A DNA stretch of 64,000 bases from Polytrichum commune (lineage: Eukaryota > Streptophyta > Polytrichopsida > Polytrichales > Polytrichaceae): NCBI GenBank assembly GCA_950295325.1, contig OX485804.1, positions 43,636,429 through 43,700,428 of the forward strand. Direction: 5' to 3'. Below are positions 814 to 63,088 of this stretch, one piece after another. Numbering within the stretch: the first letter of the stretch is position 1; the number at the start of each line of letters is the position of its first letter. The position numbers and the translations under genes are program-made. The notes below the pieces were generated by a model that saw only the letters and a list, made by a program, of their open reading frames with translations, did not search any database and was not told where the DNA came from.

Positions 814-3800
814 ATGGATTCCGACGTCGGTGAAAGTGCGTCCGATTTCTCCTCGGAACCGTCAAGCTATGCTAGCGAGTTTGAAGATGTCGTGGAACAG
901 GAAGCTACAAATGGTGTGGCCGATGCAGATGATGAAATCATACCACCATGTGAGGGTTATTCGCGGGAGCAGTGGGTTGATCTTGATGTTGTACTACTCA
1001 ATGCATGTGCCGTTCCCGTGGCCAACGGTGTTTGTAGGAACTCGAATCCAACGGATTGTATTGATGCAAAACCCCTCGGGGAGGACGATGTTGGGGTGTG
1101 CATATTGAACTCCTTACTTCCATCGGAAGTGCCTCTTGGTTGGAGGTTCTCTCTCCGTCGATGGCCTTTGCGAAGTGTTCATCACGATGGTGTGAGCTTG
1201 TGGGATCAATCCCGCCGATTTGAGCAACTGCAACAGTCTTTGTTCGCTACAATGCGTCCCAGACAAGGTCGTCGTAAATATGATTCCGTTCGTGTGCCTC
1301 GTGAACCCACGCAGCGTCGTCGAGATCATACATTGGGAGACACATCTATTAGGTCCGTAGCCACAAAGGATTGTTGTGCGAAGAAGTGCTGCCAACTATT
1401 TCCCCGTGGCAAAATCAAATCTTTGAGGCAAGAGATGTGGCTTGCCGACTTTCATATGCGGTCTGCCAAGAAACTTGAAGTACATTGCAACATGCACTTG
1501 GATGCCGGAGGTTGTAAGGTTGTGACCTTGGAAAATATAGAAGTTTGTTGCCGGGCATGGTACATTATTCATGCCGTTTCAAAGGCAGATTTTTATAGGT
1601 TCTGGAACTACTCGCTGCAAGGAAGGCGTTCTCGGTTTCATGGCAACTCAGGTACAAAGAAGCCCAGGGAGGCAACACTCCAAGCGGCTGCAACTCTGTC
1701 AACCATTATTATGCCATTAGCGGATGCGATGCCACACAAGACACGCACTTTGCCGTCGGGGGAAAAGGTTGTTCAGATGGTTTTACCCACAGGGACAAAA
1801 TGGAAGAACATACTCGTGGATGTTAATGAAGTTGGTGAAAATGTTGGATGTGGGCCGATTTCGTTGTCAAAATTGAGTGTGATCAAGAATCAACAGTTCG
1901 CTGAATACATTACGAAGAGACCCGGGGATAAGTTTGCTAGGTGTTCTACTTGTGAAAAATATAAAGGCCTTCGAAACGCACATCCAATAGGGACCGAGTC
2001 GCACACCAGACATCAACAGAAATACATTGAGCATGTCAACAACCAGGAGGCACACCGTCAAGACTACTACAAGAATCGCGCCTTATCGATAATGAGGCCG
2101 AACGAGGTGTTGACAATCATTCATGACAAAATGGACCATGCGAAGACCGCTTGCCCTTGTTATGCGCGGAAAATAAAGGCCACAGATGGATATTTCAAGT
2201 TGCCAATATCTGTCACAGGTTCGTTGGTTTTCATTTTTTTGGCGTGCCCACATACTCATTTTTAAGAGTTACGGATGCGCATCCGTAACTCGTCTGTGCA
2301 TGGTTGTTCCTTACTTGCGGCAATATCATATTTCCTTTATATATATGATATTGGAATGTACTTCTCATTTGTATGTCTTAATTCAGGTATGATTGCACAT
2401 GGCCATGTGGACGTCAAGTATGCAAAATATGGCTTGGATTTCTATCCAGGCGACGCCAATCATACCGTAGGGTCTTTTGCAAAACTTCTACGAGATCTTG
2501 AGAGTCCGCCAACATCATCCTCGCGTGCTCTTTTTGTTGGATGTGGAACAACTCCGATTTATGAGGCTGTGCTAGAGGGGAAGGAAGTTTGTCTATCTTC
2601 ACTTCAAGAACCGCCTGAACAACCCGTTCTTGCTAAACCTTTGCCTCGAACTCTACACGTGCAACTTGACAATTGTGCCAAAGATAACAAATGTCGATAC
2701 GTGTTTTGTTTCTGGTCATTGCTGGTAGCCAAGGGCATTTTCAAAGAAGTGTTTGTGTCTTTTTTGATGGTTGGCCACACGCACGATGACATCGACGCTT
2801 CATTTGGACGTTGGAGTATGAAGTTGCACGAGGAGGATTTTCCGACAATTCCTCTTCTCATGAAATCATATATGGATTTGGACAATGTGCCAGTCATTCC
2901 ACATTTGATTGAAGAAGTGCCCGATTTCAAATGGTTTATAAAACCATTCATTCTTAAGGGGTCTGACCGACTAGTGGGCCACACCAAGGCTCAACAATTC
3001 CGATTTTATATGCGTGACGATGGTCTGCCCGCCATGCAATTCAAAGTTTTGTGCACTTCCCTGAATTGGGGTCCGGAGGAAGGGATACTCATTTGGCACA
3101 AAAACGAAGATGGCAAATGTGTGCTACCTGATGGTGAGCCGAAGCCTTGCACACCCAACCCCATGAGGAATGGGCCAGAAATCATCAAAGGTATATCTGG
3201 ATTCATTGAGTATTGGAAAGAATTGTGCGAGGAAGACATCACAAGACGTGTTAGGGATACCCACGAACCATTGATTGCGTATTGGGATCGCATTCGCACG
3301 GCATTGATAGCACCCGATGTTGATACACATTCATGTTTGACACAAGGGTTTTGGCCACAAAGTCGAGTGACAGTCGTGGAATCTAAGGCCATGTTGTTTA
3401 ACAATGGGGACGTTCGTGAAGAGTTCGCTGCGGACGATCATTATGTTGGCCCTGCTCGCAATCGACCGGAGCCGTCGTTTCGTGTTGGGGTTGATTGCCA
3501 CGAAGGTTATTTGCTGCTCGTACGTGCTGGGGATGAGGAGCATCCCAAGCCAATTTGGTTGGTGAAAGCATTGTCATCACCAAACTTTGTTTCAACTAGT
3601 CCAAATTTTCGCCAAATTGAGGTGGAATATTGCCGTCCAAGCACCAAAGATCAAAATGTGCTCCGGACATATTTAGGGTGGGACACCAAAAAAGGTTTCA
3701 AATGGACAATGGACTCATCATACGAACCGGTTTGGATAAACACAAATGCCATACTTTGTGCTTGGAAACCACGCAAAGGTTCGAAATCAGAGACAATGAC

Positions 3801-3921
3801 CATCCCGCAAAAACATATAGATTTTGCCAAAGACAACTTGGCACGTATCGCAGCTGCGGAAAACGATCTTGAAAATGGAAATGAAGTTGAAGATGAAGAT
3901 GAAGAGAGGGAATTATATTGA
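814..3921 (+). CDS. DUF7869-like transposase, two exons, apparently intact
   Basis: Exons 814-2218 and 2387-3921 join in phase across a 168-bp intron (donor ACAG|GTTCGT, acceptor TTCAG|GTATG) to give 979 residues. The open frame begins at a GTG at 808, but the first ATG is 814, which I take as the start. The N-terminus is acidic, then Cys-rich (DCCAKKCC near residue 190, CSTC near 378). Candidate catalytic acids are HDKMDH (D438/D441), QLDN (D563) and GHTHDDID (D602-D605). The LDN plus HTHxDID pair is the hallmark I associate with the DUF7869 family of plant, fungal and animal transposon-derived proteins; this is assigned from memory without a search. The C-terminus is acidic (EVEDEDEERELY). 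No internal stop or frameshift is seen, so the element may be recently active. The upstream palindromes and the intronic palindrome are probably its binding sites. Confidence 0.75.
2266..2291. repeat. Perfect 26-bp palindrome inside the transposase intron
   Basis: The half-site GAGTTACGGATGC is followed immediately by its exact reverse complement. It is the upstream palindrome with symmetric C-to-T and G-to-A changes (GGACGC to GGATGC and the mirror change) and with two extra paired bases at each end. It lies in the 168-bp intron, so it could be a transposase-binding site or affect splicing; neither is shown. Confidence 0.8.
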
Positions 3922-15272: not shown

Positions 15273-17538
15273 CCATTTAGTTTTCCTAGTTCGAATCTAG
15301 TGCTTATGAGTTCCACTTGAATGTTCATGATGGTTGTGGAAATCAAGTGTTGGATCTCAACTAGCGGAGCCTTATAAGTTGAATGCTTTGGTCATTGGTG
15401 GTCTAGCTTTCTTTTGTTTAGAATCATGCATGTGTAGTATTTTACATCATTATGTATGTGGATTTCATTAGGTTTTTGGTGGTGGGTTTAGAGATAAGGG
15501 TCGTTGAGTTTTGTGATTGAGTTTTCAAAACACCTAGTTGTCGTACATGGTGATGTTGCATCATTTCGCTTTAAACTAGCAATCTCTTGAAGTTTGATTC
15601 ATACTGTTGAGAGCATTAGAGTGGGCGGATCGGTTAAGGTGGTTAGATGAGGTTCAATTTGGTGTAAGGGATGCGGGTTGGGTTTAAGTAAATCCCGATT
15701 GTTACGGATGTTTTGAAGTATCTAGTAGGTGACATTGGTACACCTACCATTATCTGGGTAGTGGGAATTGACGTGACGAACTTTAGGGTTTGTGAGGAGG
15801 AGGAAAGAGCGGCACATGTGAAAGATGAAGGTGCATATATGTGGTGGCCCTATTTACCAAGTTTCAACTAAACTTAAGTGACAAACCAACTTCTTAAGTT
15901 CGGTCTCACTTTATCTCTTTATCCAAGACCACTGCACTCCGAAGCTGGAGGGCTGAACCTAATGTGTGAGGCTCGGCCCGAACTTGCGCCTTCGTTTTTT
16001 GGTTGCTTCAAAGAGAGCTCCTCCCTGCCGTCTCCTATTGATCAAACATTGACCGATTCCATTGCATTTTGACTATCATGTCGGGACTCAACACCTAGCT
16101 TGGCAGAGGCAAACAATTATGACTTTTCTCAAGAGCAAGACGATCTAGATGTGGAGGATTTGGAGAGGTAGGGAGTGTGGGATCTACAAGTCTATCGAGA
16201 GCTTTTTGTTGCATCAAGTTGGAGATATGCTTATGGCGATCCAACGCCAGACATCCCCAATTTCATTAGCCTCGTGATTCATGTAAGCTCCTACTTCCAT
16301 TATCAATATTTTGGCGTTATGTACGAAGTTGAATCTTGTATAGCAACATAGGTGGAAGTCGAGAAGGAGTATATATTTTGTATCACTATCTTTTAATCTA
16401 TATATATTCTTTGGACTATCATTGTTTTTGGAGCGACAAGGGACTCATTGATGCTCTCATCCTTTATCTTCACACATAGTTTAGTCTTTTCTATCCTGCA
16501 ATGGTAAAAGGATGTTTTCTCATTTTTCCAACGGTATGTAATTTTGCAAAAGGGAAACTATCTTTTTGTGTTTGGGTGTGGTTTCCATCCAAAGGTTTGC
16601 AGTCAATATCCCTGGTTTTAGACCGTGTGTTTTGCTTTGTATGTTTTTTGGCTCCTCAGTAGTGAAAACCAATGAATTTCAATGATTTTTTTGTCCATAA
16701 CCTTGTCCTTAAATCGAACATTTGGATAAATGTTCTTTGAAGTCCCCAAGACATGAACTTTCCTTTTCCATTTCTATTTTACTTGACATATTATTGTTCA
16801 AAAACATATAAGCAAATGCAACCAAATTCATTAGGCTAAGCTGCATGTATAGCAACTTGTTTGCTTATATCTGCGATGGAACTCTATAGGGCATCCCCTA
16901 TGATAAGAATCGATAATGCAATCGGTATTGAAATCAACATATATGGCTTATTGTTTGAAAATTTTAATGTAATCTTTGCATTTTGTGCTTGCAAAATACT
17001 TGAGTCTTGTAACTTCACCACGGTAGATGAAAATAGGATCTAATACCATGTTTTATCACCTGTACGAGGAGGTTGCCTACGTTACTCATTGGATTTCCTA
17101 TGTTAGTCATTGTTAATGATTAGTGATGCATACCATGAGTTTTTGAATTGCATGGGAATTCCCACAAAAACATTTCCCTGAGCAATATAAGTGAGCTCAC
17201 ACAAAAACGTGTGGCCATGTTATTAAGGTTGGGAGAATTAGAAAGAACAAAGATTTAATTACGAGCATAATTAGCCGAGGAGAACAAATGAAACATGCTC
17301 TTTAGAGGGTTTTTATTTATTTTTGTTGGCCCATTGTCCATCTTTTCTGGAAATTTCAGGGCCTCACCTAGATCGAGAATTCTCAAGTAGAATAAGTTTT
17401 GCAACTTGTGATTTGCAGAGGTGTTTAAGATAATTGTTTGTGCTAAGTAAAATTGGGAGTATGGGTTTTGTGTATGTTTACAAAGTCATAGATTGAAATG
17501 TTGGCAAAATTGATGTAAAATGTAGGTTTGATTTCGTC
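15273..17538. other. Gene-free sequence upstream of the PNL locus
   Basis: No supported gene. Around 16095-16275 a stretch reads as acidic peptide (QEQDDLDVEDLE) before a stop and could be a decayed exon, but it cannot be assigned. The 5' UTR and promoter of the PNL locus should lie in the last few hundred bases; I found no decisive promoter motif. Confidence 0.35.
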
Positions 17539-19179
17539 ATGGCCATCGAGCTGCGGCAATTATTGGTGAAGCAATTGTCAATGTTGTGGCGGTTCATCAT
17601 CACTTGCTTCGTATACTTCTTGACACTTGTTGACAAAAAGACACCACATCAATGTGAGTTTTTGGAATTTTTGCAATGGAAAGCAAAAGAAATGATCAAA
17701 ATGCAAACTATTCTCCGACGAGATGATGTGTTGAATAAGCGACAATGCACAAGTCTTGTCACCAAACTTTCTACAACCATGCATAATATTATTGAGATGA
17801 TGACATCCATCGAGCAATCCATCGAAGTTAGGGTTGTGGTGATGGAGTTACATCATATCATACAAAAAGGGGGAGCATTGGTGTATGAATGTGGGAGTGG
17901 AGATTGGTGCCGTGCAGCTCTTTTCCAATTAAACAACAAAGAGGCCTTTCGGGAACTCGTGTTTGATATGGAGTGTTGCTGGGAGGGAGTGCACGAGATA
18001 TACTTGACAAACCATCCAAATCCACAAAACTACACAATGTGTAAGGATTTGAATGTGGCTACTTTGAAGGAAGTTGAAGGCGATGAACAAGACTTGCAGA
18101 ACAAACTTGAAAGTGCGCTTGAGGACTCCGAAGAATATAGATTAGCAAAGCATTTGTTGAAGAGATTGAAATGTGACTTGCAACAAGTAGAAGGCAGAGA
18201 ATTGGATGCTTTGGAAATACCTAAAGACTTTCCAAAACCTGCGCTCGAAGAACTACTGGGTGTTGGTGCTTGTGGATCAGTGTACAAGTCAAAATGGTTG
18301 GGATTACCAAGTGCAACAAAAACGGTGAAGGTTCTAGAGGATTGTTCTGGTTTTCGCAAAGAAGTTGGGATTTTGGCAGGCTTGAGCCACCCAAACCTCA
18401 TCAAATACTTTTGTTGTGGAATAGACGAAGATCGTAAGGAGTTACATTTGGTGACGGAGTTGATGGACACGAGTTTGACAAAAATGTTGGAGAAGGGCAA
18501 TAAGACATACTTACCATACGTTGTTGCAATTGATGTTATGCTTCAAATTGGAAGTGGCATGTGGTATCTTCATGACATGCATGTTGCCCATCTTGACTTA
18601 AAGCCAGACAATGTGCTTTTGAGCTCCATGACCATTGATGGCGCAAAGGATACAAATCCTTATCATTGTAATGTCAAATTGATTGATTATGGCACTTCCA
18701 AATTGGAAGTTCAAACCAAACCGCAAACAGGAAAGGATAATTTTATTGTGGGTACACCAAGGTATATGGCACTTGAGGAAATGGACAGAAACCTAGTTTG
18801 TATGGCATGTCCTTTCCAAGCGGATGTATGGTCTTTTGCTATGACATGTTCAGAGATCCTTTCCCATAAGGTACCATTTCATCGCACACATAGTATGAAA
18901 GAAATTCTTCTAAAAATAAAGAAGGGTGAAAGGCCGGAGCTACATGTCAATTGTGGGGAGCTTACCAAATTGATCGAGGAGTGTTGGAGGGAGGATCCCT
19001 TACAAAGGCCAACATTCTTTGATATTTGCAAGAGACTTATAGGCTTGAAGAAAATGTTCATGAAGGCGACATCTTTGAATGACATGGTTCCGCAATTTTA
19101 TGGAGTTAGGAATCTTTTCCAAAAGATGTCAACAACATCGAAAGGTTGGAAAAGAGAAATGAATCACGGTAGTGAGAAG
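17539..19179 (+). CDS. PNL exon 1: helical N-terminus and protein kinase domain
   Basis: 547 intact codons starting at ATG 17539. Residues 1-200 are helix-rich with a hydrophobic segment (LSMLWRFIITCFVYFLTLV) near the start. They resemble the helical-bundle region found ahead of kinase domains in moss kinases and MLKL/RPW8-like proteins (loose resemblance, inference). The kinase spans about 235-505: G-loop GVGACGSVY (241-249), lysine K264 in TVKV, catalytic loop HLDLKPDN (351-358), DYG (383-385) in place of DFG, and ALEE in place of APE. The essential K, D and N residues are all present, so activity is possible. The donor is GAGAAG|GTAAATG. If that intron is retained, the frame ends at 19234-19236 after 18 more codons. 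Confidence 0.8.
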
Positions 19180-19336
19180 GTAAATGCCACTTCCATTACA
19201 ATGCGCTCACTTTTCAAGTTATTCTCAATTTACTAATTGCTTTGATTTATTATTGTGAATGTTTGAAGTTGAACATGCATTTTTGGTGGTAAGGTATACT
19301 ATTGTTTATTGACATATTTATATGTTGTACATACAG

Positions 19337-20389
19337 GTGTTTGATGGAACATTACTCAATGATCCAATGGTGGTTGGTCTTGAGAACAACCTTGCAAGAG
19401 TGAAAGATCACCTCAGAGATGTGAATACCTTGGGTTTTGTCGGTATGGGTGGAATACGGAAGACCACATTGGCGAAGGCCGTATTTGATGATGTGAAGTT
19501 CACATATGATGTTTCATGCTTTGTCGGGCAATTAAAACGTAGGAGTCCGCTTGATATTCTACGTGAAATTTTATCAAGATCTGGCGTGCACAAAGAAGCC
19601 CAGAATTTATTGCATGCGCACAAATTGATGGAAGAATTGTTGGACGAAAAGAAAGTCCTTTTGATCTTGGACGATGTTAAGGATGAAGCTCAAGTGGATG
19701 ATATTATACCAAAGGTCGTCTTAGATCGGAGCAAGGGCTCCACACTTATTATAACAACTCGTGATTGGGGTGCAATTAGAAATCGTGTGAGGGCGAGTGG
19801 TACAAGACTTGATGTGAGCAGGTTAGGTGATGATGCAGCAAAAACTCTCTTCAACATTCATTCTTCTTGGGAAACATCTCATTTGTCACCACAATTCAAT
19901 GATATACATGACATAATTGTTGAAGCTTGCAAGGGCTTGCCTTTGAGTTTGAAAGTCGTGGGGGCATACTTACGTGGGAAAGGATAGTTGCAAAGTTGGG
20001 AACGCGCATTGCAAAGGATGAAAAGGGGAAGAAATTTGGACGGGTAGGATGATGAGATATGGAATACCTTGAGAGTAAGCTTCGATGATGGTTTAACACA
20101 AGAAGAGAAAAATATGTTTTTGGACATCGCTTGCTTCTTCGGTGGAGATGTGTATCCTAGTGGCATGTCAAAAGAAAGAGCCCTACGCATATGGAGCAAT
20201 AACAACATCCCTCCAATTTCCGCATTGGAGAATTTGGTCCATCGGGCATTGGTAATCATAGAAATTGATGGTGTTGGTGATGAAATTTTGCAAATGCATG
20301 ACCACCTATGTGCCATGGGACAAATGATTGCTGAGAAAGAATATGCAGGTACTCGAATTTGGAACGCAAACGGACTCACAAGCTGTTTG
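19337..20389 (+). pseudogene. PNL exon 2: NB-ARC domain with two in-frame TAG stops
   Basis: The acceptor is TACAG|GTGTTTG and the donor is TTTG|GTATTTT, and both keep phase 0. NB-ARC motifs appear in order: P-loop GMGGIRKTT (Arg, codon 19457-19459, replaces the usual Gly before Lys), kinase-2 KKVLLILDDV, RNBS-B STLIITTRD, GLPL as CKGLPLSLKVVGAYL, FLDIACFF, and MHD as ILQMHDHLC. TAG stops at 19985-19987 and 20045-20047 sit inside otherwise well-conserved coding (LQSWERALQR between them, DDEIWNTLRVSF after). FLDIACFF is the TIR-type variant of RNBS-D although no TIR domain is present. Confidence 0.8.
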
Positions 20390-20626
20390 GTATTTTACTA
20401 ACATTGGCTATACCAAGACATTGTCTTATGTATTATAATTGTGAATGATTTCTTAAAACATTTGGCTGGATGCAAAACCTTCAATTGAAAATGACATTTT
20501 GGTTGAATATTTGGTAAATTTTTAGCATGTTATAGATGCTTAGCATAAACTGATGTTATGTACTAGCACTTAGGAAAAACTACACAAGTACAATATGCTA
20601 ATACTTTCATGTATTCTAAAAAACAG

Positions 20627-23020
20627 GATGTGGAAAAACTTCAAGGTTGTTTTTATTTTGGCGATGGAATAAGCCACAACCTATTTCAAGTTCGACAAAT
20701 CCAAGATGGTGGTCTGAGCTATCTTCGGCTATTGAGATTTCATAGCAAAGACAAGGAGATCTCAAATATCATCAACAACATACAGTCCATTTGTTCACTT
20801 GCTGCACGCTCTTTCAACTTGAAATGTTTTATAATAGACTTACAATCATCAATTTGGGGTGAGACGGATTTGTGCAATTGGGATGAATTGAGTTTGGAGA
20901 TTTGTGAGAATCTATTAACAAACACACATCTTTGGAGAATTTGTGACAAATTACAAGTATTGCAATTGCAAGGATGTTCATTCTTGAATCTAATACCCAA
21001 AGAAATATTTTCAATCACCACTTTAATGGACGTTGATCTACAAGGTTGTTCAAAATTGATAACGATACCGGAGGGATTGGGAAACTTGAGTTCTTTGATA
21101 ACCCTTGATTTGCAAGGGTGCAAGAGCTTGACAACGATACCGGAGGGGTTGGGGAACTTGAGTTTTTTGACAACCCTGTCTTTGAGTGGGTGTACGAGCT
21201 TGATAACGATACCCGAAGGATTGGGAAACTTGAGTTCTTTGACATACCTTTATATGGGATGGTGTAGGAGCTTGACAACGATACCGGGGGGATTGGGGAA
21301 CTTGAGTTCTTTGACAACCCTTAATTTGACGTGGTGTACGAGCTTGACAACGATACCGGAGGGATTGGGGAACTTGAGTTCTTTGACAACCCTTGATTTG
21401 CGAGGGTGCCAAAGATTGACAACGATACCGGAGGGATTGGGGAACTTGAGTTCTTTGACAACCCTTGATTTGGGGTGGTGTATGAGCTTGACAACGATAC
21501 CGGAGGGATTGGGGAACTTGAGTTCTTTGATACACCTTCATTTGGCAGGGTGTAGGAGGTTGACAACGATACCGGAGGGATTGGGAAACTTGAGTTCTTT
21601 GATATACCTTTATTTGCAAGACTGCTAGAGCTTGATAACGATACCGGAGGAATTGGGGAACTTGAGTTCTTTGACAAGCCTTGATTTGACGTGGTGTACG
21701 AGCTTGACAACGATACCGAAAGGATTGGGGAACTTGAGTTCTTTGACAACCCTTGATTTGCAAGGGTGCGAGAGCTTGACAACGATACCGGAAGGATTGG
21801 GGAACTTGAGTTCTTTGACCTACCTTTATTTGCAAGACTGCAGGAGCTTGATAACGATACCGGAGGACTTGGGGAACTTGAGTTCTTTGACAACCCTGAC
21901 TTTGAGTGGGTGTACGAGCTTGACAACGATTCCGGAGGGATTGGGAAACTTGAGTTCTTTGACATACCTTAATATGGGATGGTGTAGGAGCTTGACAATG
22001 ATACCGGGGGGATTGGGGAACTTGAGTTCTTTGACAACCCTTGGTTTGCAAGGGTGCGAGAGCTTGACAACGATACCGGAGGGATTGGGGAACTTGAGTT
22101 CTTTGACAACCCTTTATTTGCAAGGGTGCAAGAGCTTGACAACGATACCGAAGGGATTGGGGAACTTGAATTCTTTGACAACCCTTGATTTGCAATGGTG
22201 CGAGAGCTTGACAACGATACTGGAAGCATTGGGGAACTTGAGTTCTTTGACAAACCTTGATTTGCGAGGGTGCAAGAGCTTGACAACGATACCGGAGGGA
22301 TTGAGCAACTTGAATTCTTTGACAACCCTTGATTTGCAATTGTGCGAGAGCTTGACAACGATACCGGAAGGATTGGGGAACTTGAGTTCTTTGACCTACC
22401 TTTATTTGCAAGACTGCAAGAACTTGATAACGATACCGGAGGAATTGGGGAACTTGAGTTCTTTGACAACCCTTGATTTGCGATGGTGCAAGAGCTTGAC
22501 AACGATACCGGCTGGATTGGGGAACTTGAGTTCTTTGACAACCCTTGATTTGCGAGGGTGCAAGAGCTTGACAATGATACCGGAAGGATTGGGGAACTTG
22601 AGTTCTTTGACATACCTTTATTTGCAAGACTGCAAGAGCTTGATAACGATACTAGAGGGATTGGGGAACTTGAGTTTTTTGACAACCCTTGATTTGCGAG
22701 GGTGCAAGAGCTTGACAACGATACCGGAGGGATTGGGGAACTTGAGTTCTTTGACAACCCTTGATTTGCGAGGGTGCAAGAGCTTGACAACGATACCGGA
22801 GGGATGGGGGAACTTGAGTTCTTTGACAACCTTGATTTGCGAGGGTGCAAGAGCTTGACAACGATACCGGAGGATTGGGGAACTTGAGTTCTTTGACAAC
22901 CCTTAATTTGAAATAGTGTACGAGCTTGACAACAATACCGAAGGGATTGGGGAACTTTAGTTCTTTGAGAACCTTTAATTTGGGTAGGTGTACGAGCTTG
23001 ACAACGATACCGGAGGGATT
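20627..23020 (+). pseudogene. PNL exon 3: leucine-rich repeat domain, interrupted
   Basis: The acceptor AAACAG|GATGTG keeps phase. About 145 codons of linker (DVEKLQGCFYFGDGI onward) lead into LRRs of 24 residues with consensus LTTLDLxGCxSLTTIPEGLGNLSS. A TAG at 21626-21628 replaces the AAG/AGG codon found at the same place in sister units. The frame then continues open to 22858, where one C lost near 22832 shifts it. A G is lost near 22873, and the repeats fade out at 23020 with no tidy C-terminus. Confidence 0.8.
21050..23020 (+). repeat. About 27 tandem 72-bp LRR-coding units
   Basis: A 72-bp unit (containing GATACCGGAGGGATTGGGGA, ACTTGAGTTCTTTGACAACC, TTGATTTGCGAGGGTGCAAG) repeats almost without length change for nearly 2 kb, each unit encoding one 24-residue LRR. 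Variation concentrates in the xxLxLxxCxSL segment. Near-identity of many units points to recent expansion or conversion. Long open frames on the minus strand here are by-products of the repeat. Confidence 0.9.
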
Positions 23021-24853
23021 GGGGGGAGCGCTATCATATGAGCGGTGAGCAGTGAGCGATGAGTAGTGAGCAGTTACTAATGAGTAGATTAGGGTGAGAA
23101 AAATTTCAGTAACATACCCATCACCGTGGGTTTGGTATCTTATTACCACATATTTGTAGCTCAAACATCAACACATGTTACATGTTGAAAACTAACTTGC
23201 CAATTGATTGTTCCAATTCATATGAACATTTGAAATCATGATGGAAGCTATAAAACAATGATGTTGTGGAAATCATTAGGATTTAGGGATTTTTGACAAT
23301 GGTCCCACAAATCAATGTCCACTCTTAGTGGTTATTTTATAAAAACTAGATAATTGCTACAAAAAAAACATGTGCACATATATACCAAGTCATGTGCAAG
23401 ACCTCTTCATGCACCTATATTTTATTTTATTATCTATTATTCTTCTTATTATTACAAACACAAACATTATATTCATCTGGCTTTATATCCATGAATGCCA
23501 AGATACAAAGATCATAATGTTTAGATCTACTTTGCCTTGGAGGTGTAATAACAGTTGCTAACGGTATCGCCTTAGACTCGGCATACACAGGGCTCGGGGA
23601 GTTCACTGCGATAATATTAGAAAACAACGTGCGGGAAAATATAGGGTAATTTATATTCACAAAAGAAAAAACTTAGAATTTTCTTAGAAGTAATATAGGT
23701 GAGTATGTATGATAAAATTTGTATTATAAATAATATAGGCTTGATACAAATAATGCATATTTTTAAAATATTTGTAAAAATATACCGTAGGATTTTAAGG
23801 ATCCTAGGGTTTTTTTTTGAAAGAGGGTGTCCTTTGTGTTCAGAGGCGGGAAGATTTTGGATGAAAAACTAGGAGTTTTGGTTGGTCTTGTATTTGTCTG
23901 CTTCAAGCAGGATGTTGTAGTATTAACTCTATACCCTTCTGCATTATTGCATGGACCCTGTTTTTGCTTGCTTTGTTGTTGGTGTTTGAATTGTTTTTTT
24001 TGACACTCAGTACTGTTGTGTTTAATTGTGTGTGTAACTTGATTGAGGAACATGGGTTGATTTTCTTGTTTGAAACTGTTTATGAACACTCTTAATGTAA
24101 AACCTTGTTGTGCCTTGGATTTTGGTGACTTAGCACTTTGATTTATTGCTCATTGCTCATTGCTCGTGTCTTAGCTTTCCTCTATACTTGACCATGCTTG
24201 TTTCCCTTAGTATTTATGGCTCACTCTCATTAGACTTTGATCATTCATAACAACTCGAGATTGACTCACAAATTGTCTAAGATTAATAAGAGCTTCTTCA
24301 TATACTATTTGTAGACGCATTGCAAGCTCAACCTCACGAATCTGAGCAGTCTAGTTAAGCAAGTATCAAAATCAACCAAATAAGGCCCATCCACCTTATT
24401 TAATACACCCCATCCACATTCCACATCATAACTCAGGCATGAACTGTACATCAAAATTCAATCTAATCATGCCCTAGATTTTGGTCACCGTGTTACTCAA
24501 CTCCCTTGGGGGGTTCATTGGCGAAAATCGTAGAACAACGTGTGATAAAAAATAGGGTCTAATATATTCATTGTAGATAAATTTTGTGAAAAAAATTACA
24601 TATAATATAGGGGGTTTTAAAATAGTGAAAAAGGATTACATGTAAAATACCATTACACCTTTATTTTGAAAAATACCATACCTTATAATATTTTCTGCAA
24701 GGTAAATAGCCCCCCAATAAATAGGTCCCGAACGCATGTGTATGCAAAATATAAGAGGGAGTGAACCCCCCGAGTCAACTCCTTGCCAGCTACATTCGTG
24801 AGACCAGGTGTCAAACGAGCATAATTTGCCTTTAATTATGGGATGTCCCTTTT
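23021..24853. other. Gene-free sequence
   Basis: Begins with a short repeated phrase at about 23037-23085 (GAGCGGTGAGCAGTGAGCGA and variants). Similar phrases recur at 24149-24165 (TTGCTCATTGCTCATTGCTC). The rest is AT-rich with no supported gene. Confidence 0.4.
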
Positions 24854-25316
24854 AAAAACTCACTTATATGCTATAGAATTTTTGATAAGCATAGGTATTT
24901 AATTACAGGCTCTTTCTTTGGAAAAAAGACCATCATGTAGCTGCTTAGTAATGTTATGGTATTTTCTAGGTGCCAAGATAGAAAGCCAAGGTCAGGTGAT
25001 GGCCACTGAGCCTTGCAGCAAAGCAGTTGAGTTTCCTCCACACAAGACTCTTTCTCTCTCTCTCTCTCTCTCTCTCTAAAACAACGAAAAAACTCACTTA
25101 TATGCTATAGAATTTTTGATAAGCATAGGTATTTAATTACAACCTCTTTCTTTGGAAAAAAGACCATCATGTAGCTGCTTAGTAATGTTATGGTATTTTC
25201 TAGGTGCCAAGATAGAAAGCCAAGGTCAGGTGATGGCCACTGAGCCTTGCAGCAAAGCAGTTGAGTTTCCTCCACACAAGACTCTTTCTCTCTCTCTCTC
25301 TAAAACAACGAACAAA
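24854..25316. repeat. Tandem duplication of a 234-bp segment upstream of the chloroplast protein gene
   Basis: Copy 1 (24854-25087) and copy 2 (25088 to about 25316) are nearly identical, from AAAACTCACTTATATGCTAT through GGCCACTGAGCCTTGCAGCA to a CT microsatellite followed by AAAACAACGA. They differ by a few substitutions and by the CT-run length (longer in copy 1). Copy 2 ends about 35 bp before the ATG at 25351, so the duplication covers the likely promoter and 5' UTR. The CT run resembles a plant pyrimidine-patch core promoter; that role is inference. Confidence 0.85.
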
Positions 25317-25350
25317 CAAAGAAGAAGAATAGAGTTGGGAGAGAGCGGCT

Positions 25351-25920
25351 ATGGCTATGGCTATGGCGTCCATGCACTGCTTCTCCCTCCTGGCCTCCAC
25401 GCCACGAGCCACGCAATCTTCTCTCCTCCTCAATTCCTCGGTTTCGCCTTGCTCTCGATTCTCCTACTGCACGCTCCCATGTCTTCGCATTAAGAAGAAT
25501 TCAAGAAATGCGCGCCTACGAGTGGTGTCGCAACAAACCCCCGATGCGGAGGCATCCGACGTCGGCGCAGCGGGCGTGGCCGCCATAGCTGGAGGCTTGA
25601 TTGCCAATCCAGTGGTGGCGTGGTCGCTCTTCACGCTGAAAACCACCGGCTGTGGATTGCCTCCCGGTCCTGGCGGTGCAATTGGAGCTGTGGAAGGTGT
25701 GAGTTACCTCGTCATTCTTGGAGTCATTGGCTGGTCGACATACTCGAAGGTGAAAACCGGGTCGGGACTCCCCTCTGGCCCTTACGGCCTTCTTGGAGCT
25801 GTGGAAGGCCTCTCGTTTCTTAGCGTTCTTGCTATTTTGGTAGTCTTTGGTCTACAGTACGTCGACTATGGTTTTATTCCTGGCCCTGTGCCCAGCGACT
25901 TATGCTTTGGCTCACCGTGA
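25351..25920 (+). CDS. Chloroplast-targeted thylakoid-type membrane protein, single exon
   Basis: 189 codons. Residues 1 to about 58 are Ser/Ala-rich with Arg/Lys and few acids (MHCFSLLASTPRATQSSLLL region), a typical plastid transit peptide. Three hydrophobic segments follow, at about 73-95, 115-135 and 150-168. The last two lie in an internal repeat of the form GLPxGPxGxxGAVEGxSxL. The C-terminus GFIPGPVPSDLCFGSP is polar and conserved-looking. I recognise the overall pattern of a conserved, poorly characterised green-lineage plastid membrane protein but cannot give a symbol or reaction. The start has three closely spaced ATGs (25351, 25357, 25363) followed by ATG at 25372; I chose the first. 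Two decayed copies of its 3' half follow directly, and its 5' region is duplicated. Confidence 0.8.
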   Translation: MAMAMASMHCFSLLASTPRATQSSLLLNSSVSPCSRFSYCTLPCLRIKKNSRNARLRVVSQQTPDAEASDVGAAGVAAIAGGLIANPVVAWSLFTLKTTGCGLPPGPGGAIGAVEGVSYLVILGVIGWSTYSKVKTGSGLPSGPYGLLGAVEGLSFLSVLAILVVFGLQYVDYGFIPGPVPSDLCFGSP

Positions 25921-40559: not shown

Positions 40560-41934
40560 ACCAATGATCGCGGAGAAACCGGCCGCTAGTTACAGTTACA
40601 CCGGTGGAGTTAAAGAAACAACCGGTTCAAATCCAAGACTTCGGGACATTACCGATCCGTGTAGAGGAATCCGTCGAATATTCCTTGCTTCAATAAAGAG
40701 CCCCCGAAAGGTGTCAACATGTGACCGGTTGGTATCGGAAACACTAGGATCTCAACCGTTTAACCCTATGATCGGGGAGAGCCGGTGGTTACGTACAGAT
40801 GAACCGGTTGAGTTTGAGAAAGAACCGGTTGAAGTTGAAGACTGCAGGAGAATTACCGATCGTTTTAGAAGAATCTATGGAAGAATATACCACAATCTAG
40901 TAAAGGAACATCGGAATTCAATGCAAGGTTGACCAGGGAGATTTTTGGGCACACTAATCGGTTGAGATCCTAGTGTTTGCAAGTCCGCCTGGTTACATGT
41001 TGACAACATCCTCCGGTGTTCCTTTATTAAGTAGGGGTATATTCTTCTATAGATTCCTCTAAAATGGTCGGTAATTTTCCTGCAATCTTGAACTTCAACC
41101 GGTTATTTCTCAAACTCGACCGGTTCATCTGTAACTAACTGCCGGCTCTCCCCGATTATAGGATCCTAGTGTTTGGAAGTCTGACCGGTTACATGTTGAC
41201 ATCCTTCGGTGTTCCTTTACTAGATTGGGGTATATTCTTCCATAGATTCCTCTAAAATGATCGGTAACTCTCCTGCAGTCTTGAACTTCAACCGGTTATT
41301 TCTCAAACTCAACCGGTTCATCTGTAACTAACTGCCGGTTCTCCCTGATTATAGGATCCTAGTGTTTGGAAGTCCGACCGGTTACATGTTCACATCCTCC
41401 AGTGTTCCTTTATTAGATTGGGGTATATTCTTCCATAGATTCCCCTAAAATGATCGGTAACTCTCCTGCAGTCTTGAACTTCAACCGGTTATTTCTCAAA
41501 CTCAACCGGTTCATCTGTAACTAACTGCTGGTTCTCCCCGATTATAGGATCCTAGTGTTTGCAAGTCCGACCGGTTACATGTTGACATCCTCCGGTGTTC
41601 CTTTACTAGATTGGGTATATTCTTTTATAGATTCTTCTAAAATGATCGGTAATTCTCCTGCAGTCTCCAACTTCAACCGGTTATTTCTCAAACTTGACCG
41701 GTTCATCTGTAACTAACTGCCGGTTCTCCCCGATTATAGGATCCTAGTGTTTGGAAGTCTGACCGGTTACATGTTGACATCCTTCGGTGTTCCTTTACTA
41801 GATTGGGGTATATTCTTCCATAGATTCCTCTAAAATGATCGGTAACTCTCCTGCAGTCTTGAACTTCAACCGGTTATTTCTCAAACTCAACCGGTTCATC
41901 TGTAACTAACTGCCGGTTCTCCCCGATCATTGGT
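40560..41934. mobile_element. Fold-back element built of ACCGGTT-rich 193-bp units
   Basis: The outer ends ACCAATGATCG (40560) and CGATCATTGGT (ending 41934) are inverted repeats. On the right, five direct units start near 40966, 41161, 41354, 41547 and 41739 (spacing 192-195 bp), each with GGATCCTAGTGTTTG, ACCGGTTACATGTTGACATC, ATAGATTCCTCTAAAATGAT, CTTCAACCGGTTATTTCTCA and CTAACTGCCGGTTCTCCCCG. On the left (40560-40930) are about two units in opposite orientation and more diverged. The ACCGGTT motif is itself nearly palindromic and recurs many times. No coding capacity. It is probably a non-autonomous DNA element whose subterminal repeats have expanded. Confidence 0.7.
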
Positions 41935-52621: not shown

Positions 52622-53110
52622 TCAAAGGAGAATTCTGCTCATGTGACACATGGTCCCACGGAATGCAACCAAGGATTTGTGTCATGGTATGAAGGTTCGT
52701 TGTTACTAAATGGACATTACAAAGGAGAATTATGGTCATATGACACCTGGTCCCACGAAACGTGAGCCAAAGAGTTGTGTCATGTTATAAAGGCTTGTTG
52801 TTACTAAATGGACATCAAAAAGGATAATTCTGCTCATATGATACCTGGTCCCATGGAACGTAGACAAGGAGTTGTGTCATGTTATGAAGGCTCGTTGTTA
52901 CTAAATGGACATTACAAAGGAGAATTATGGTCATTTGACATCTGATCCCACGAAGCATAACCCAAGGAGCCGTGTCATGTTATAAAGGCTCGTTATTACT
53001 AAATGGACATTAAAAAGGAGAATTCTGTGCATATGACACTTGATCCCATGGAACGTAGTCAAAGAGTTGTGTCATGTTGTGAAGGCTCGTGGTTACTAAA
53101 TCGACATTAA
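52622..53110. repeat. Five tandem units of about 97 bp with A-B-A-B-A alternation
   Basis: Units begin near 52622, 52718, 52815, 52914 and 53011. Each contains GGAGAATT, a GACACCTGGTCCCA-like phrase, GTTGTGTCATGTTAT, GCTCGTTGTTACTAAATGGA and CATTA. Odd units read AATTCTG and TATGAAGG or TGTGAAGG, while even units read AATTATGG and TATAAAGG. This points to a dimeric higher-order unit of about 195 bp. Noncoding. Confidence 0.8.
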
Positions 53111-53755
53111 AAAAAGGGCACATGCTACCATTTGTAGGGTCAGTAGTTAACGTGATTGAGAGATGTGATCATTAATTTAGACAGGGAAATCAAAAGAATC
53201 CTCACTTTGATTTCTCAACGATTTTTTTTGCATTTCAACTTCAATTCCGAAACTGGAAATGACGATCTGCGTGACACACGATTGCTAATGAGATGAGTCG
53301 ACAAGTCCCCATTCGATTCAACGGCCAAAATTGTATGCGGTGTTGGAAACGCCGCCACCCACAGTACTGTTAGGGCCACCGTAACTTGAGGTGATATTAA
53401 GAAGTTATATTATGCTGGTCCCATAGGGGACTCATTATTTGTAAGGAAAGCAGTCAAAGCAGGGTCAGAAGTGAATGTGACGTCAAAGGGGTTCTGATTA
53501 CAAAAGTTTTCAAGTATCGGTCCCACTTTGCCAGATTCTTCTTCACTGATTCTTCTTCTGGGCTGTAGGTGCCACTCATAAACACATTTTGATATTTGTT
53601 GGAGGTTGTGCAATTGATCTAGGCTACCGAGGTTTAGTACAACAACATAACTAATAGGAGAATTGGTGTGTCGGAATCCAGCAGCGACTTGAACTATATC
53701 TACAATCGACAACAATATTCAAATAGGTCGTAACTTACACTAAATATTGGACTTA
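53111..53755. other. Gene-free sequence
   Basis: A minus-strand open frame at 53410-53715 (101 codons) has no recognisable motif and is not called. Nothing else seen. Confidence 0.35.
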
Positions 53756-57361: not shown

Positions 57362-60300
57362 ATGTGGTTCCTTCCGGAGTTCCTGTCGCCCTTCGGCCCG
57401 GACTGCACAAGATGCAAGACCTCCAATAATGGCTCCTTCGGGGATTCGGTTCCGGCAGCAATTTTGATCGGCTTGTTTTTCGCGTACGTATGGGCGAGGC
57501 TGAAGCCATGGGTGTCGCCCCAGCCCGACGACAGCAAGGACTACATTATGCAAGATTTGCATCGTGCGAAATCGTTCTTGAGCAACTTACATGACCTAAT
57601 GTGGAGTGAGAAGTCGCCTCCGCAAACGAATGAGAGCATCTCGAAAGAGGGAGAGGACATCCTCTTGTCGAAGACGCACTTGCGCGGAGCCGGCTCCATA
57701 GCCACGAAGAAAAGCACCTCGGAAACGATTACAGGGACTTTGACGATCGGTACCCACATCGATAAAGAGGAAGTCGAACGGTTGAAGCATAAGCTCCACG
57801 TGCTCGGCCATGGCGATTACGTGTATCAGGTGCATGAGCCTTCGGTCCTTTTACAGGCGAGGCTGCCGATCACCTCCGAGCTTCTCAGTCAAGCATTCGA
57901 AGTGGCGCGGCAAGGGGTTGCACTTGACCCGCAATGCACTCTTCAACTCGGGACTTGGGGTGTCATCTTGGAGTCAGGTAATCTTGTAAACGATCGAATG
58001 CTTTTCCGATTTTATGTCTCAGGCGAATCGAATTAAGTTACATTGAATTTCTTCACATTGGCTCCATCTTTTTGACATTGTCGAGTTGATGAATGTATGC
58101 AGAGGGTGACATGAAGCTCCTGCGGCTCCGGGATGGAGACGCACCTATTTTGCTCGAATCGTTCCAGGAGGAAGGTAGCGCCCCCCCTGCCCTGCCGTTT
58201 GATTGAGCTCCTCGGAATTCAACATGAATAATTTCGGGACAAAATCAATTGCACTATGCTTTATTCTTTTCTTTTCCCTGCCACAATTTAGCAATTCTGA
58301 TCCACGTTGCCGGGCTTGTGTGAACATTGAACAGACGAGGACCTGAGAGTGGAGGGGATGTTCCTTCAAGGAGTGCAGTTACGAGCTGTGACGGGTGAAG
58401 AGAGTTCTGCATTGAAAACCAAAGCCCTCCTCAAGGTGAACCAAACATTCAACATATATTGTCAGGCATTTTATGTGAGGATTTCTTGCCGGAAATGAGA
58501 ATAGGTAACTTAGAACTAGGTGTCAGGACAGATTCTTACATGTACTTGGTGGAAGTAGTAATACGGTCCCGACTGGCCGATTCTGTGCAGGAAGGGTCGG
58601 TGTGGGTGGATGCGCTCATAGTGTGGGCGCCAACAAATGACGTCAACAAGACGTCGTTGCTGTATGCCACGAAGATTGTGGAGTTCCAAGGGTTAGCCGT
58701 GGAAGTTCGCAGCGGCTTCATTCCCGTCAGCTTCAAGTTCAAACCAAGACACGAAGGTTCTCATTCTTACCCTTGCATTTGAAGTTACTTCTATCTCCTT
58801 TTCTTCAAGCTGGCTTGTTTGGTGAAGTTTTTGAGATCATGGCAATCATTTGGTCGAGTCGATGGTCCATTAACGACTGCCTCCGAGCTTACCCTTAGTG
58901 ATCCCCAAATCATAGCAGAATTCTTTACTGCATTGCAGTCACTAGAAACATAATCACTTTCTGCCGAAATTGCCACTGTGTGTTGTAGTCTTGGATGCAC
59001 TGACAGTCAAAAGGCGATGGCAGATCATACGGGCTTGTACCTGGCGGGAGCACTTGCGGTCACGGTGGCCCTCATGCCAAGCCAGTTCTGGTTACCGATC
59101 CTCGGCAAGATTGGAATGCTGTTTCTTCCGATTATGCAGCTAGCTGCGGTAATTCTCGGTTGGAATTTTGGCCACTTTTTGATACTCGGAGAGTGGCCGA
59201 CCACGAAAGGGTAAGATCTCTATGTGATTGTAAAGATTTCCTACATTGTATCGATAATCTCCACACTCGTATTGGTAAGATAGACTCCAGATGATAGGAA
59301 GAGAAAGAGCATTAAGGCAAGTATACCTCAATTACGTAACCTCAGAATGGCCGATGAAGTGACCTATGTACATGTCATGTTTGCAGAGCGCATGAACTGA
59401 AATTAGATGCGCATGCTGTCAAGAAATTGGACCACGACCTTCATCGCTACATTACTCCATGGGACAGGTAGGCATTCTTGCTTGTTTCATATCGATCGCT
59501 TTGTCATGTTGTAGTTTGAAGCATTTCGATCTATGTCAAAAATTCCGTCGACACATAGCAGGACAATCGACTAAGAGAATTTTCTGAAGTTTACCTTGTT
59601 GTCAACTTTTCTTCTCCAATATATTTGCCGCCACTTGGAAAACTCAACATTTTTTCTCTAATCATCTTCGAAGAGATAATGGTTGCCGATGTACGCTGAT
59701 GATTAGGGCTGACAATGGTGAGTAAAAGTTTCAGCTTAAATAATCATGTATTTGGTTCTGACAGTGTGGTAAGGATGGAAATGAGCGATCTGGAGAGAGG
59801 ACTGGTGCAAAGACTAGACAGGCGACCTAGCTCAGCAAACACAGGGATATACGCGCAACAGGCGGATTACCGCACCGAATTTTGGAACAAGGGTGTTACT
59901 GAAATGAACGAGGCAATCGAAATTGAACCTGAAAATGAGCTGCCGTTCCGGTGAGTGACCTTAACAAGTAAATGTGTCTTACAATATCACACCATTCATG
60001 TCCACCGGGAGACAAGGAATGTATGAAGTGGTGTATCTGTCATTTTGAAGCCCGATTCTTGGGTTGTTCATTATCACATGTGAAGGTGTCAACGTGTGGC
60101 AGGGTACGAGGTTGCATTAAAGGACTGGCAGGCAATTACGAGGAAGCGTTGAAAGATCTGGACCAGGCCATTGAGATGAAACCAGATGATGTCCTGGCAA
60201 TTGTCGATAGAGGCGTCTTCAGATTCTTGAACGGTGACTTCAAGGCTGCATTGGCAGATCTCGACGAGGGCATCAGACTTGAACCCCTTCAGCCTCCAGC

Positions 60301-63088
60301 GATAATGAGGCTGCGTGAGACCATCCTCCAGGTTAGTATTCGAAGCACCAAAATACTTAGCAGCTTGAAGGAGCTCATGCATTATGGACGGTTAGTGTTA
60401 GCTTTTGCTCCTAGAATATTTTTCCGTGACAAGGGCTAGAAATTCACGTCGAGTACGTCATTTCTCGTGCCCTGCGGGTGCTCTTAAAAGTGCGCTAGTA
60501 GACTATCATAAACTAAAGCGCATTTCGAAACATTCCATGATAGCACTGCCTACATGAAATTGCCTTATGAGTAAATCGAGACATAATAAAACATAAATGA
60601 GATTCCTGTAACAGAAAGTTTCGTTTGATGAATTTAGATTTTAGAAGACCAAGCGGACCTAGCCCGGCTTCGAGAGGAAAACCCCAGACTGAAGGAGGAA
60701 TTAGAAGCAACACGTGCGAAAGCTGCGGCCGACCTAGAAGCAGCTGAAGCCAAAGCTGCGGCCGAGCTTGCAGATGCCCAAGCCCGAGCTGCAGCCGAGC
60801 TAGAGGCAGCCATAGCCAAAGGTGCGGCTGAGTTAGCTGCTGCTCAGACCCAAGCTGCTGCTGAGCTAGAGGCAGCCATATCTAAAGGTGCGGCGGAGCT
60901 AGAGGCAGCCATAGCTAAAGGTGCGGCGGAGCTAGAGGCAGCGCAAGCCAAAGCTGCGGCTGATCTAGAAGAGCTGCGGGCCAGACTCCAGGCCGAGATG
61001 GCAGACTTGCGATCCAGACTCGAAGGGGAGATGGCTGAGTTGCGGTCCAGACTCGAAGGGGAGATGGCTGAATTGCGGTCAAGACTCGAAGGGGAACTGG
61101 CAGCGGTGCGGTCCAGGCTTGAAGGGGAGCTTGCGGACTTGCGGTCTACATCCGAAGCGGAGATTACGGACTTGAAGTCCCAAAATGAACAATTGCGAGA
61201 AGATCTCACCAAAGCCGAGGAAATTATTAGCAAGTTGCCAACAAATCAAGTAAGTTATTCCAACCACTTCGACGAGTCAATTTACTCAACAAGTTTCAAA
61301 GACTGATTCAGACCGGTAGACCTATTAATCTTTGAAACTCTTCTGCCGATCAGAAAACGTGAACGACACCCAGCGCTTGCATCTCCATTGTTCACCTCCT
61401 TATTTTGGAGTTTCCACGTTTCCAGCTGGTATCCATCCGCTCTGTAGACGGATAGTTTATCATGATTCAAGCCGAATCCTTTTATCGTGTTTGCACTCAA
61501 CGAGACTCTGCTGAGCTCATTTCAACAATATACTCATCCGCATAGATCTACTACTGATTTATTGTTCCTCCGTTAGTTTACATAAAATGCTGCATTCTAT
61601 TACGTACTCATTGGAACTGAAAAACCTAGGTGGATTTGTCTGCATTACTGCAGTTTTTGTGTGGCATATCTGCTAGCAAGAGTCTTGGCACTACTACTAG
61701 CTACTTAGCAATCCCACACTTGAGTTCTAAGCTCCTTAGAATTTCGTCAAGTGATGTCACCAAAACGACCTACCTACAAGGCCGATAAATCTTTGAACCT
61801 GTATATGTTGATAATCAGATACACATGCTGGGCTGGAGTTAGTTTGCCACTCCGTCTCTTGACCCGTTTCACCAGAGGTAGAGCAAAATTCAAGTCAGTC
61901 CAGAACTCGCGTTGTTGATCATCTGTGATAATTTGGACGTTTCTTGGCTGCAGACATTAACAATACAATACAACAACCTTTGTTGCGAGAAGTGCGTCAA
62001 AGACATCAGGGCGGTACTCACGAAGAATGTTCCTGGTAACAACACAGTCTACCACACTCCACCAAGTTTGTGATGATGAAAATAAACTTATTTCTGAATC
62101 GCTCAATTCTCACAGAAACAATGCTTCTGTGTAAGATGCATCGTAATCTTAACATGTTTCTGTGTGTCGCGCTACAGGGGTTGAAAAAGTGATCGAGGAT
62201 TTCATGGCCAACACGATCACAGTCATCGGCCTCGTCTCCACTGCAGAAGTATTAAGAGTCTGCAGAGAAAAATCTCCGAGGAAGGCCATCAACCTTATTG
62301 GCGAAGCTCCTGGAGTTCCACTTGAGACAATGACCAAGGGCTACGAATCTGACCAGCATCATTATGAACCTCAGGCTACACCAGAGCCAGCACCAGCTGC
62401 TCCTGCACAAGAACCCCCAGCCGAGGCTGCTGCTCCGGAACCGGCACCGGAGCCCGAAGCTGTACCCGAACCGGTCCCGGAGGCTGAAGGCGCACCCGAG
62501 CCTGCTCAGGAGCCCGAGGCTACACCCGATCCCGCACCGGAATCTGCTTCGGAGCCCACTCCGGAGCCTGAGTCTGTACCCGAGGCTGCACCGGAACCGG
62601 CTCCCGAGCCTGCTCCGGAGCCTGAGGCTGCACCTGAGGCTGCTCCGGAGCCCGAGGCTGCACCTGAGCCTGAACCGGAACCTGCACCAGAGCCTGAAGC
62701 TGCACCCGAACCCGAGCCGGAGGCTCCACCGGCACCGGAGCCAGAAGCAGCACCCGAGCCTGAAGTTGCTCCTGAACCCGAGCCTGCACCGGAGCCGGAA
62801 CCGAAGCCGGAACCGAAGCCCGAAGCAGCACCCGAGCCTGAAGTTGCTCCTGAGCCCGAGCCTGCACCGGAGCCGGAACCGGAGCCCGAAGCTGCACCTG
62901 AGCCCGAGGCACCATCCGCACCTCCCGCACCAGAGCAGGAGGTAGCCTCGGCACCTCCTGCATCTGAGCCAGAGGTTACACCTGACGCCGAAGGAGAACC
63001 GACGACAACACAGGCAGAAGAAATCTTCGAGTGGAAACCTAAGGAGAATGGTGAGGTACAGCACGAAGTGGAGGCTGTTGCAGGTTGA
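57362..63088 (+). CDS. Large membrane protein with TPR, coiled-coil, HMA and Pro-Glu-Ala domains
   Basis: Eleven exons chain in phase: 57362-57977, 58103-58174, 58335-58394, 58466-58756, 59024-59210, 59387-59467, 59765-59950, 60103-60331, 60638-61249, 61954-62035 and 62178-63088, giving 1108 residues. Exon 3/4 borders are ambiguous: 58335-58435 with 58480-58756 also fits and adds 9 residues. Domains in order: membrane segment about 29-47; a globular part of unknown type; a second hydrophobic region about 350-395 ([20 protein letters not shown]); two to three TPR units about 465-570 ([19 protein letters not shown]); an Ala-rich then hendecad coiled coil about 575-778; an HMA domain about 779-850 with LCCEKC (CxxC = C789/C792) that would bind a soft or transition metal; and an acidic Pro/Glu/Ala tail ending VEAVAG. 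There is no CaaX box, so it is not a HIPP. The role is unknown; a membrane-anchored metal-binding scaffold is inference. Two adjacent genes split in the 61250-61953 intron is the main alternative. Confidence 0.65.
60900..61170 (+). repeat. Repeated coiled-coil units in the large gene
   Basis: An 11-residue (33-bp) unit, [11 protein letters not shown] or a close variant, repeats about five times in a row at 60995-61160. It is preceded by an imperfect Ala-rich unit ([11 protein letters not shown]) of the same 11-residue length. The 11-residue periodicity is the hendecad form of coiled coil. Near-identical DNA units imply recent in-frame expansion. Confidence 0.8.
62380..62960 (+). repeat. Pro-Glu-Ala low-complexity repeat coding the C-terminal tail
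   Basis: Roughly 190 codons are made of [14 protein letters not shown]-like units, using GAGCCTGCACCGGAGCC, GAGCCCGAGGCTGCACC and similar interchangeable 6-12-bp blocks. The composition is Pro, Glu and Ala only, with a few Ser, Val and Thr residues. It is expected to be extended and disordered, a spacer or bristle. Four reading frames stay open here because the repeat lacks stops in any frame. Only the plus frame joined to the HMA exon is supported. Confidence 0.85.

Follow-up and report, generated by a model that had tools for sequence, protein, structure and literature searches.

A predicted moss gene that joins hydrophobic segments, TPRs, a long coiled coil and a divergent HMA-like domain

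A membrane-anchored multidomain protein appears to be encoded by one plant gene, most likely a moss gene, in genomic DNA of Polytrichum commune, and this explanation is favoured as a whole with moderate confidence. The DNA analysed is a window of 64,000 nt (assembly GCA_950295325.1, contig OX485804.1, positions 43,636,429-43,700,428 of the forward strand), and all coordinates given here are those of the window. The predicted gene lies at 57362-63088 on the plus strand. A preliminary description of this region had proposed one gene with membrane segments, TPRs, a coiled coil, an HMA domain and a Pro-Glu-Ala tail. A single spliced frame with these parts in this order was recovered; nevertheless, the HMA match falls below the Pfam cut-off, and exons 1-4 are linked to the remainder by a poor splice pair.

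The predicted gene and its exons

The gene was rebuilt exon by exon from the DNA. It has 11 exons and encodes 1080 aa with no internal stop; all ten introns have GT/AG borders, and the sole stop is the last codon. Exon 1 (57362-57977, plus strand, as are all the others) begins with the start ATG and encodes an N-terminal CTRC motif, a hydrophobic segment at residues 29-47 and a predicted ferredoxin-like fold at 57716-57970. Exon 2 (58103-58174) ends at a weak donor at 58175, which scores 1.39 with the weights of an approximate plant consensus, so that absolute donor scores here and below are rough. Exons 3 (58335-58435) and 6 (59387-59467) follow from the rebuilt frame. The 3' end of exon 4 (58591-58756) is uncertain, with an alternative donor at 58692, and so is the 5' end of exon 5 (59024-59210), which carries the second hydrophobic region and has an alternative acceptor at 58989 and an alternative start ATG at 59017. 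A first, degenerate TPR is encoded by exon 7 (59765-59950) and two clear TPRs by exon 8 (60103-60331). Exon 9 (60638-61249) encodes a long helix of 11-residue repeats and contains 33-bp DNA repeats at 60719-60969 and 60975-61164. The contested intron 9 (61250-61953) opens with the strong donor CAA/GTAAGT and is 704 nt long, against 125-306 nt for the other nine introns. The first half of the HMA domain, with its CEKC motif, is encoded by exon 10 (61954-62035), which would gain 24 in-frame residues if the acceptor at 61882 were used instead. Exon 11 (62178-63088) supplies the second half, the Pro-Glu-Ala tail from about 62370 and the stop TGA; the predicted C-terminus is EAVAG.

It had been claimed earlier that phase is kept with GT/AG borders at each junction from 59024 to 63088, that exon 9 ends in phase 0 at CAA/GTAAGT (61249/61250) and that exon 10 starts in phase 0 at GCAG/ACATTA (61954) with TLTIQY...LCCEKC. 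The rebuilt chain agrees with all of this. The length of 1108 residues and the CxxC position of C789/C792 had to be corrected to 1080 residues and C761/C764. The whole model holds only eight cysteines, and four of them are in two CxxC motifs: C15-T-R-C18, on the N-terminal side of the segment at residues 29-47, and C761-E-K-C764, which belongs to the HMA domain. No tRNA was found by ARAGORN, and no Rfam family at gathering scores.

Domains of the predicted protein

The TPRs are significant in a Pfam profile search (best family E 1.4e-11). A 160-aa piece gave 44.6 bits for TPR_9 (cut-off 35) and 39.1 for TPR_1 (cut-off 27.8), so that the tandem TPR motifs clear the curated thresholds. The HMA-like domain occupies about residues 751-820, with C761 and C764 as its CxxC pair. 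As a 92-aa piece, it matches the Pfam HMA profile with 22.3 bits and E 1.8e-4, and inside an 840-aa query with 18.4 bits and E 0.0028, both below the curated cut-off of 24.8. The domain search that had been suggested as a check of the model bore out the TPRs and left HMA short of the Pfam cut-off. The best NCBIfam match, CopZ (E 7.4e-5), reaches 23.1 bits where the cut-off is 85. By its sequence, the HMA domain is taken to be divergent.

Among the 32 distinct PDB sequences matched by the HMA piece up to E 10, the best is the plant protein HIPP6 (E 1.3e-4), and its alignment spans the junction of exons 10 and 11 and therefore supports that splice. Three yeast copper chaperones for SOD1 come next (E 0.0096-0.012). 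Hedgehog proteins make up 19 of the 32, all at query residues 54-91 only and at E 0.078 or worse; these are probably chance matches.

The helix of exon 9 is rich in Ala, Glu and Leu and is composed of the 33-bp DNA repeats. Its strongly hydrophobic residues repeat with spacings of 4, 7 and especially 11 positions, which is an 11-residue coiled-coil pattern. A sub-threshold match to the Apolipoprotein profile (44.5 against 90) probably reflects the same periodicity. Three amino acids account for 196 of the 240 tail residues: P (78), E (66) and A (52).

For the N-terminal 408 aa, no Pfam or NCBIfam family was matched up to E 1 and no PDB chain up to E 10. A tblastn search of the gene against the 64-kb window returned the self-match and three matches of E 2.7 or worse. 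In searches that reach close relatives only, the N-terminal 408 aa had 14 pattern matches in the collection genome_contigs, and the HMA piece had 13 in viral_contigs; none was confirmed in either.

Membrane topology and the N-terminal segment

Hydropathy places the hydrophobic segments at residues 29-47 and about 320-376. Past the second region, windows of at least 1.2 on the hydropathy scale occur only in the HMA core (782-806), and for this reason the part from the TPRs to the tail would sit on one face of the membrane. Such an arrangement had already been put forward in the preliminary description, and the hydropathy backs it. The region at about 320-376 may form one span or a hairpin. A hairpin would put the TPR-to-tail part on the same face as the soluble N-terminal part, whereas one span would put the two on opposite faces.

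Structure prediction gave the segment at 57716-57970 a ferredoxin-like fold with low confidence (pLDDT 59). HMA domains belong to the same fold class. A Foldseek search with this model gave 1718 PDB matches (E up to 10), and the best 50 of these are mostly designed or generic ferredoxin-like folds, with none at E 0.001 or below and none named HMA. No HMA profile or HMA PDB chain was matched by the segment itself; the few weak matches up to E 10 are to unrelated families. Its alignment to the C-terminal HMA domain was no better than that of shuffled sequences (fractions of 0.74 for local and 0.44 for global alignment, in 3000 shuffles). Homology of the segment to HMA was thus rejected by the profile, PDB and shuffle tests, and it is kept as a fold lead: the soluble N-terminal part may hold a ferredoxin-like fold, of the HMA fold class, without a CxxC pair.

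Coding signal along the gene

Differences among the repeat copies of exon 9 were counted by codon position over all pairs, so that the counts are not independent: they are 42/46/93 in the first array (seven copies) and 21/8/48 in the second (five copies). This excess at the third position indicates that the protein sequence has been kept, as is expected for translated, constrained sequence. In the tail, too, the third codon position is the most variable (entropy 1.39/1.31/1.93). A 78-bp duplicate in the tail differs at 2/1/2 sites by codon position; these five differences show no position bias and are too few to be informative.

A codon score was trained on exons 1-8, where coding windows average 0.48 bits per codon (sd 0.18) and intron windows -0.61 (sd 0.39). 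Exon 10 scores -0.164, the HMA part of exon 11 scores 0.081 and the tail -0.21, unlike exons 1-8. GC3 declines irregularly towards the 3' end, with 0.69 in exon 1 and 0.46 in exon 11, and thus exons 10-11 may owe their different codon usage to a gradient.

The two contested junctions

The junction of exons 4 and 5 is the weaker one. Its donor at 58757 is the poorest of the ten (-0.21), and its acceptor at 59024, with a pyrimidine fraction of 0.29, ranks last for the pyrimidine tract among the 12 that were scored. An alternative pair, 58692/58989, is in frame, scores better and gives a product ten residues shorter. As this splice pair is poor and alternatives are present, exons 1-4 are less certain than the remainder. 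They may even form a separate gene ending at 58782, with the membrane-TPR-coil-HMA gene beginning at the ATG at 59017. This ATG, a possible separate start, stands in the context GCGATGGC, which we take to be a good plant start context, and read-through of exon 4 meets a stop at 58780-58782. Such a division would, however, leave just about 234 nt between the genes, which is very short for a plant, and two in-frame splice solutions (58757/59024 and 58692/58989) already join the exons; it is regarded as unlikely. The join of TPRs, coil and HMA would be unaffected by it, since the membrane region, TPRs, coil, HMA and tail remain in one frame with either splice pair or with the start at 59017.

The join of coil and HMA across intron 9 is favoured, with good confidence, as lying within one gene. 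Stand-alone HPP/CCH-type genes often have a short first exon that ends in phase 0 right before the first HMA strand, which lends weight to a reading with two neighbouring genes: a membrane-TPR-coil gene stopping at 61304-61306, and a small HPP/CCH-type gene for HMA and the Pro-Glu-Ala tail with a short first exon within 61307-61953. Intron 9 is over twice as long as the next-longest intron, exons 10-11 differ from exons 1-8 in codon usage, and HMA plus an extension makes a complete known gene type, as far as the available text of PMC11330527 and PMC10459601 describes it. On the other side stands the donor at 61250. It scores 4.52, and sites of at least 4.5 occur at 0.38 per kb on both strands of 1-57000. 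Of the 247 other ORFs that reach 60 aa or more, eight carry such a donor within the 60 nt that precede the stop, and three carry it in phase 0; counted over the stops of any frame, the phase-0 figure is 46 of 6090. Hence, a strong phase-0 donor at the end of the upstream gene would be a coincidence of about 1% (3/247). Read-through beyond 61250 (18 codons to the stop) is intron-like at -0.376 bits per codon, against 0.197 for the last 18 codons of exon 9. A separate HMA gene would also need a start of its own, because Met is absent both from exon 10 and from the stretch upstream of it, back to 61882, over which its frame stays open. Intron 9 offers at least eight in-phase combinations of ATG and donor at 40 nt or more ahead of the acceptor. 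The best of these micro-exons start at 61754 or 61805 and use the GT donor at 61838, so that an in-phase ATG exon is present at 61754-61837. Its donor scores just -1.24, a value that 81% of 2000 shuffles in two-base blocks reach or exceed, and its codon score is -0.199; still, a micro-exon with a weak donor is possible, as one accepted donor of the gene scores just -0.21. In base composition, intron 9 has a T content of 0.317 against 0.320 in the other introns and 0.266-0.284 in the flanks, and it is richer in C than the other introns (0.239 against 0.198). The stretch directly upstream of exon 10, 61882-61953, has a codon score of 0.025; with the acceptor at 61882 adding in-frame residues, this leaves the start of exon 10 not fully certain. 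The comparisons of donor, acceptor, codon score and ORF ends make a break in the 704-nt intron less likely, and two genes are accordingly the less probable reading. It may also be asked whether the gene is a decaying or never-translated fusion, or the join just an occasional chimeric transcript. Repeats and a low-complexity tail could expand without function, and the 78-bp tail duplicate has no codon-position bias. Against this are 1080 codons without a stop and the third-position excess among the exon 9 repeat copies, which render such an origin very improbable.

Comparison with known systems

The familiar forms of HMA protein in plants are small soluble, prenylated and ATPase-linked modules, besides decoy domains within immune receptors. 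HIPPs carry one or two HMA domains with CxxC; the single-gene model resembles HIPPs and HPPs in its HMA-like domain with CEKC, which scores 22.3 bits against the Pfam cut-off of 24.8 and has HIPP6 as its best PDB match. The Pro-Glu-Ala tail also recalls the proline-rich stretches that commonly follow HMA in HIPPs, according to the available text of PMC10459601. However, the moss model ends in EAVAG without the C-terminal CaaX isoprenylation motif, and its HMA comes only after the membrane segments, the TPRs and the long helix. Lacking CaaX, the predicted protein is, by its sequence, not a HIPP. HPPs are defined, in the accessible part of the same source, by HMA domain(s) without CaaX (PMC10459601); here, CaaX is absent and the HMA score lies below the Pfam cut-off.

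With the copper chaperones CCH and ATX1, which bind copper and pass it on to ATPases, the likeness lies in an HMA-type domain followed by a C-terminal extension, as in CCH. Their MxCxxC motif, as given in the available text of PMC5661435, is altered here to LCCEKC, with both cysteines kept and Met replaced by Leu. CCH is a small soluble protein with an N-terminal HMA, whereas here, provided that the gene is one unit, HMA would follow hydrophobic segments in a protein of 1080 aa and would be tethered to membrane and coil. Poplar CCH genes are described with one intron in 15 of 21 and two in six (PMC5661435, in the text available), and citrus HIPPs, in a source likewise available in part, with 2-5 exons.

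Membrane-anchored TPR receptors of the TOM70 type also combine a membrane segment with TPRs, and TOM70 is among the TPR sequence matches. The model differs in having just two to three TPRs, plus coil, HMA and tail. The carboxylate-clamp Lys/Asn/Arg of Hsp70/Hsp90 TPR co-chaperones were not seen when the repeats were compared by eye with the clamp positions. No membrane-TPR-coil-HMA combination was recognised in a literature search covering titles and abstract starts of open-licence papers among the matches listed. The parts are known, and their combination appears to be new.

Other features of the window

A gene resembling PK-NBS-LRR immune receptors is predicted at 17497-23024. It has, in order, a kinase ORF (17497-19233), an NB-ARC ORF (19313-19984), a winged-helix ORF (20048-20398) and LRR ORFs, and its LRR array consists of 27.4 copies of a 72-bp repeat with 85% matching. 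A class of genes with this order is on record for the moss Physcomitrella patens (PMC3352924, in the text available), a likeness that by itself points to a moss as the most likely source of the window. A long ORF at 2266-3918 carries DUF7869 (E 3.1e-38) and is preceded by another long ORF (760-2262) with no Pfam match up to E 0.01. At 24854-25301, a 234-bp unit is duplicated in tandem almost perfectly (1.9 copies, 99% matches), and right downstream of it is a 195-aa ORF (25333-25917), again with no Pfam match up to E 0.01. Long tandem arrays are present at 40966-41927 (period 193 bp) and 52624-53113 (97/195 bp).

Proposed architecture, origin and meaning

The encoded protein would be anchored by the hydrophobic segment near the N-terminus together with the second hydrophobic region. 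Its TPRs most likely serve as a docking site for a partner protein. The helix of 11-residue repeats, roughly 200 residues long, would probably self-pair into an oligomeric rod, which could be as long as about 30 nm if it is helical throughout. The rod would carry at its far end a tethered docking or metal-handling module, HMA, with an acidic and probably disordered Pro-Glu-Ala tail behind it; the role of this module can be likened to that of free HPP/CCH proteins in solution. The extension of CCH is disordered and stabilises dimers, as stated in the available text of PMC11330527, and the tail may similarly aid self-association. Metal binding of the predicted HMA is plausible because both cysteines are kept; docking is as likely, since some HIPP functions are independent of metal in the part of PMC10459601 that is available. 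A metal-responsive scaffold, as the preliminary description had it, is a weaker suggestion here than there.

The HMA exons were probably captured through an intron from a stand-alone HPP/CCH-type gene. The phase-0 border right before the first HMA strand fits such exon capture, if set against the intron positions of known genes. It is suggested, tentatively and with some doubt, that a membrane-TPR-coil gene captured a stand-alone HMA metallochaperone in the moss lineage, giving rise to a membrane-tethered, rod-mounted metallochaperone or an HMA docking scaffold.

HIPPs are the prenylated, membrane-targeted form of HMA protein, and they are reported only from vascular plants, as far as the available text of PMC10459601 goes. 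If the model is true, a moss would bring HMA to the membrane with a protein anchor and a rod in place of a lipid; it would have solved the same problem independently, and the gene would be a clean case for testing exon capture.
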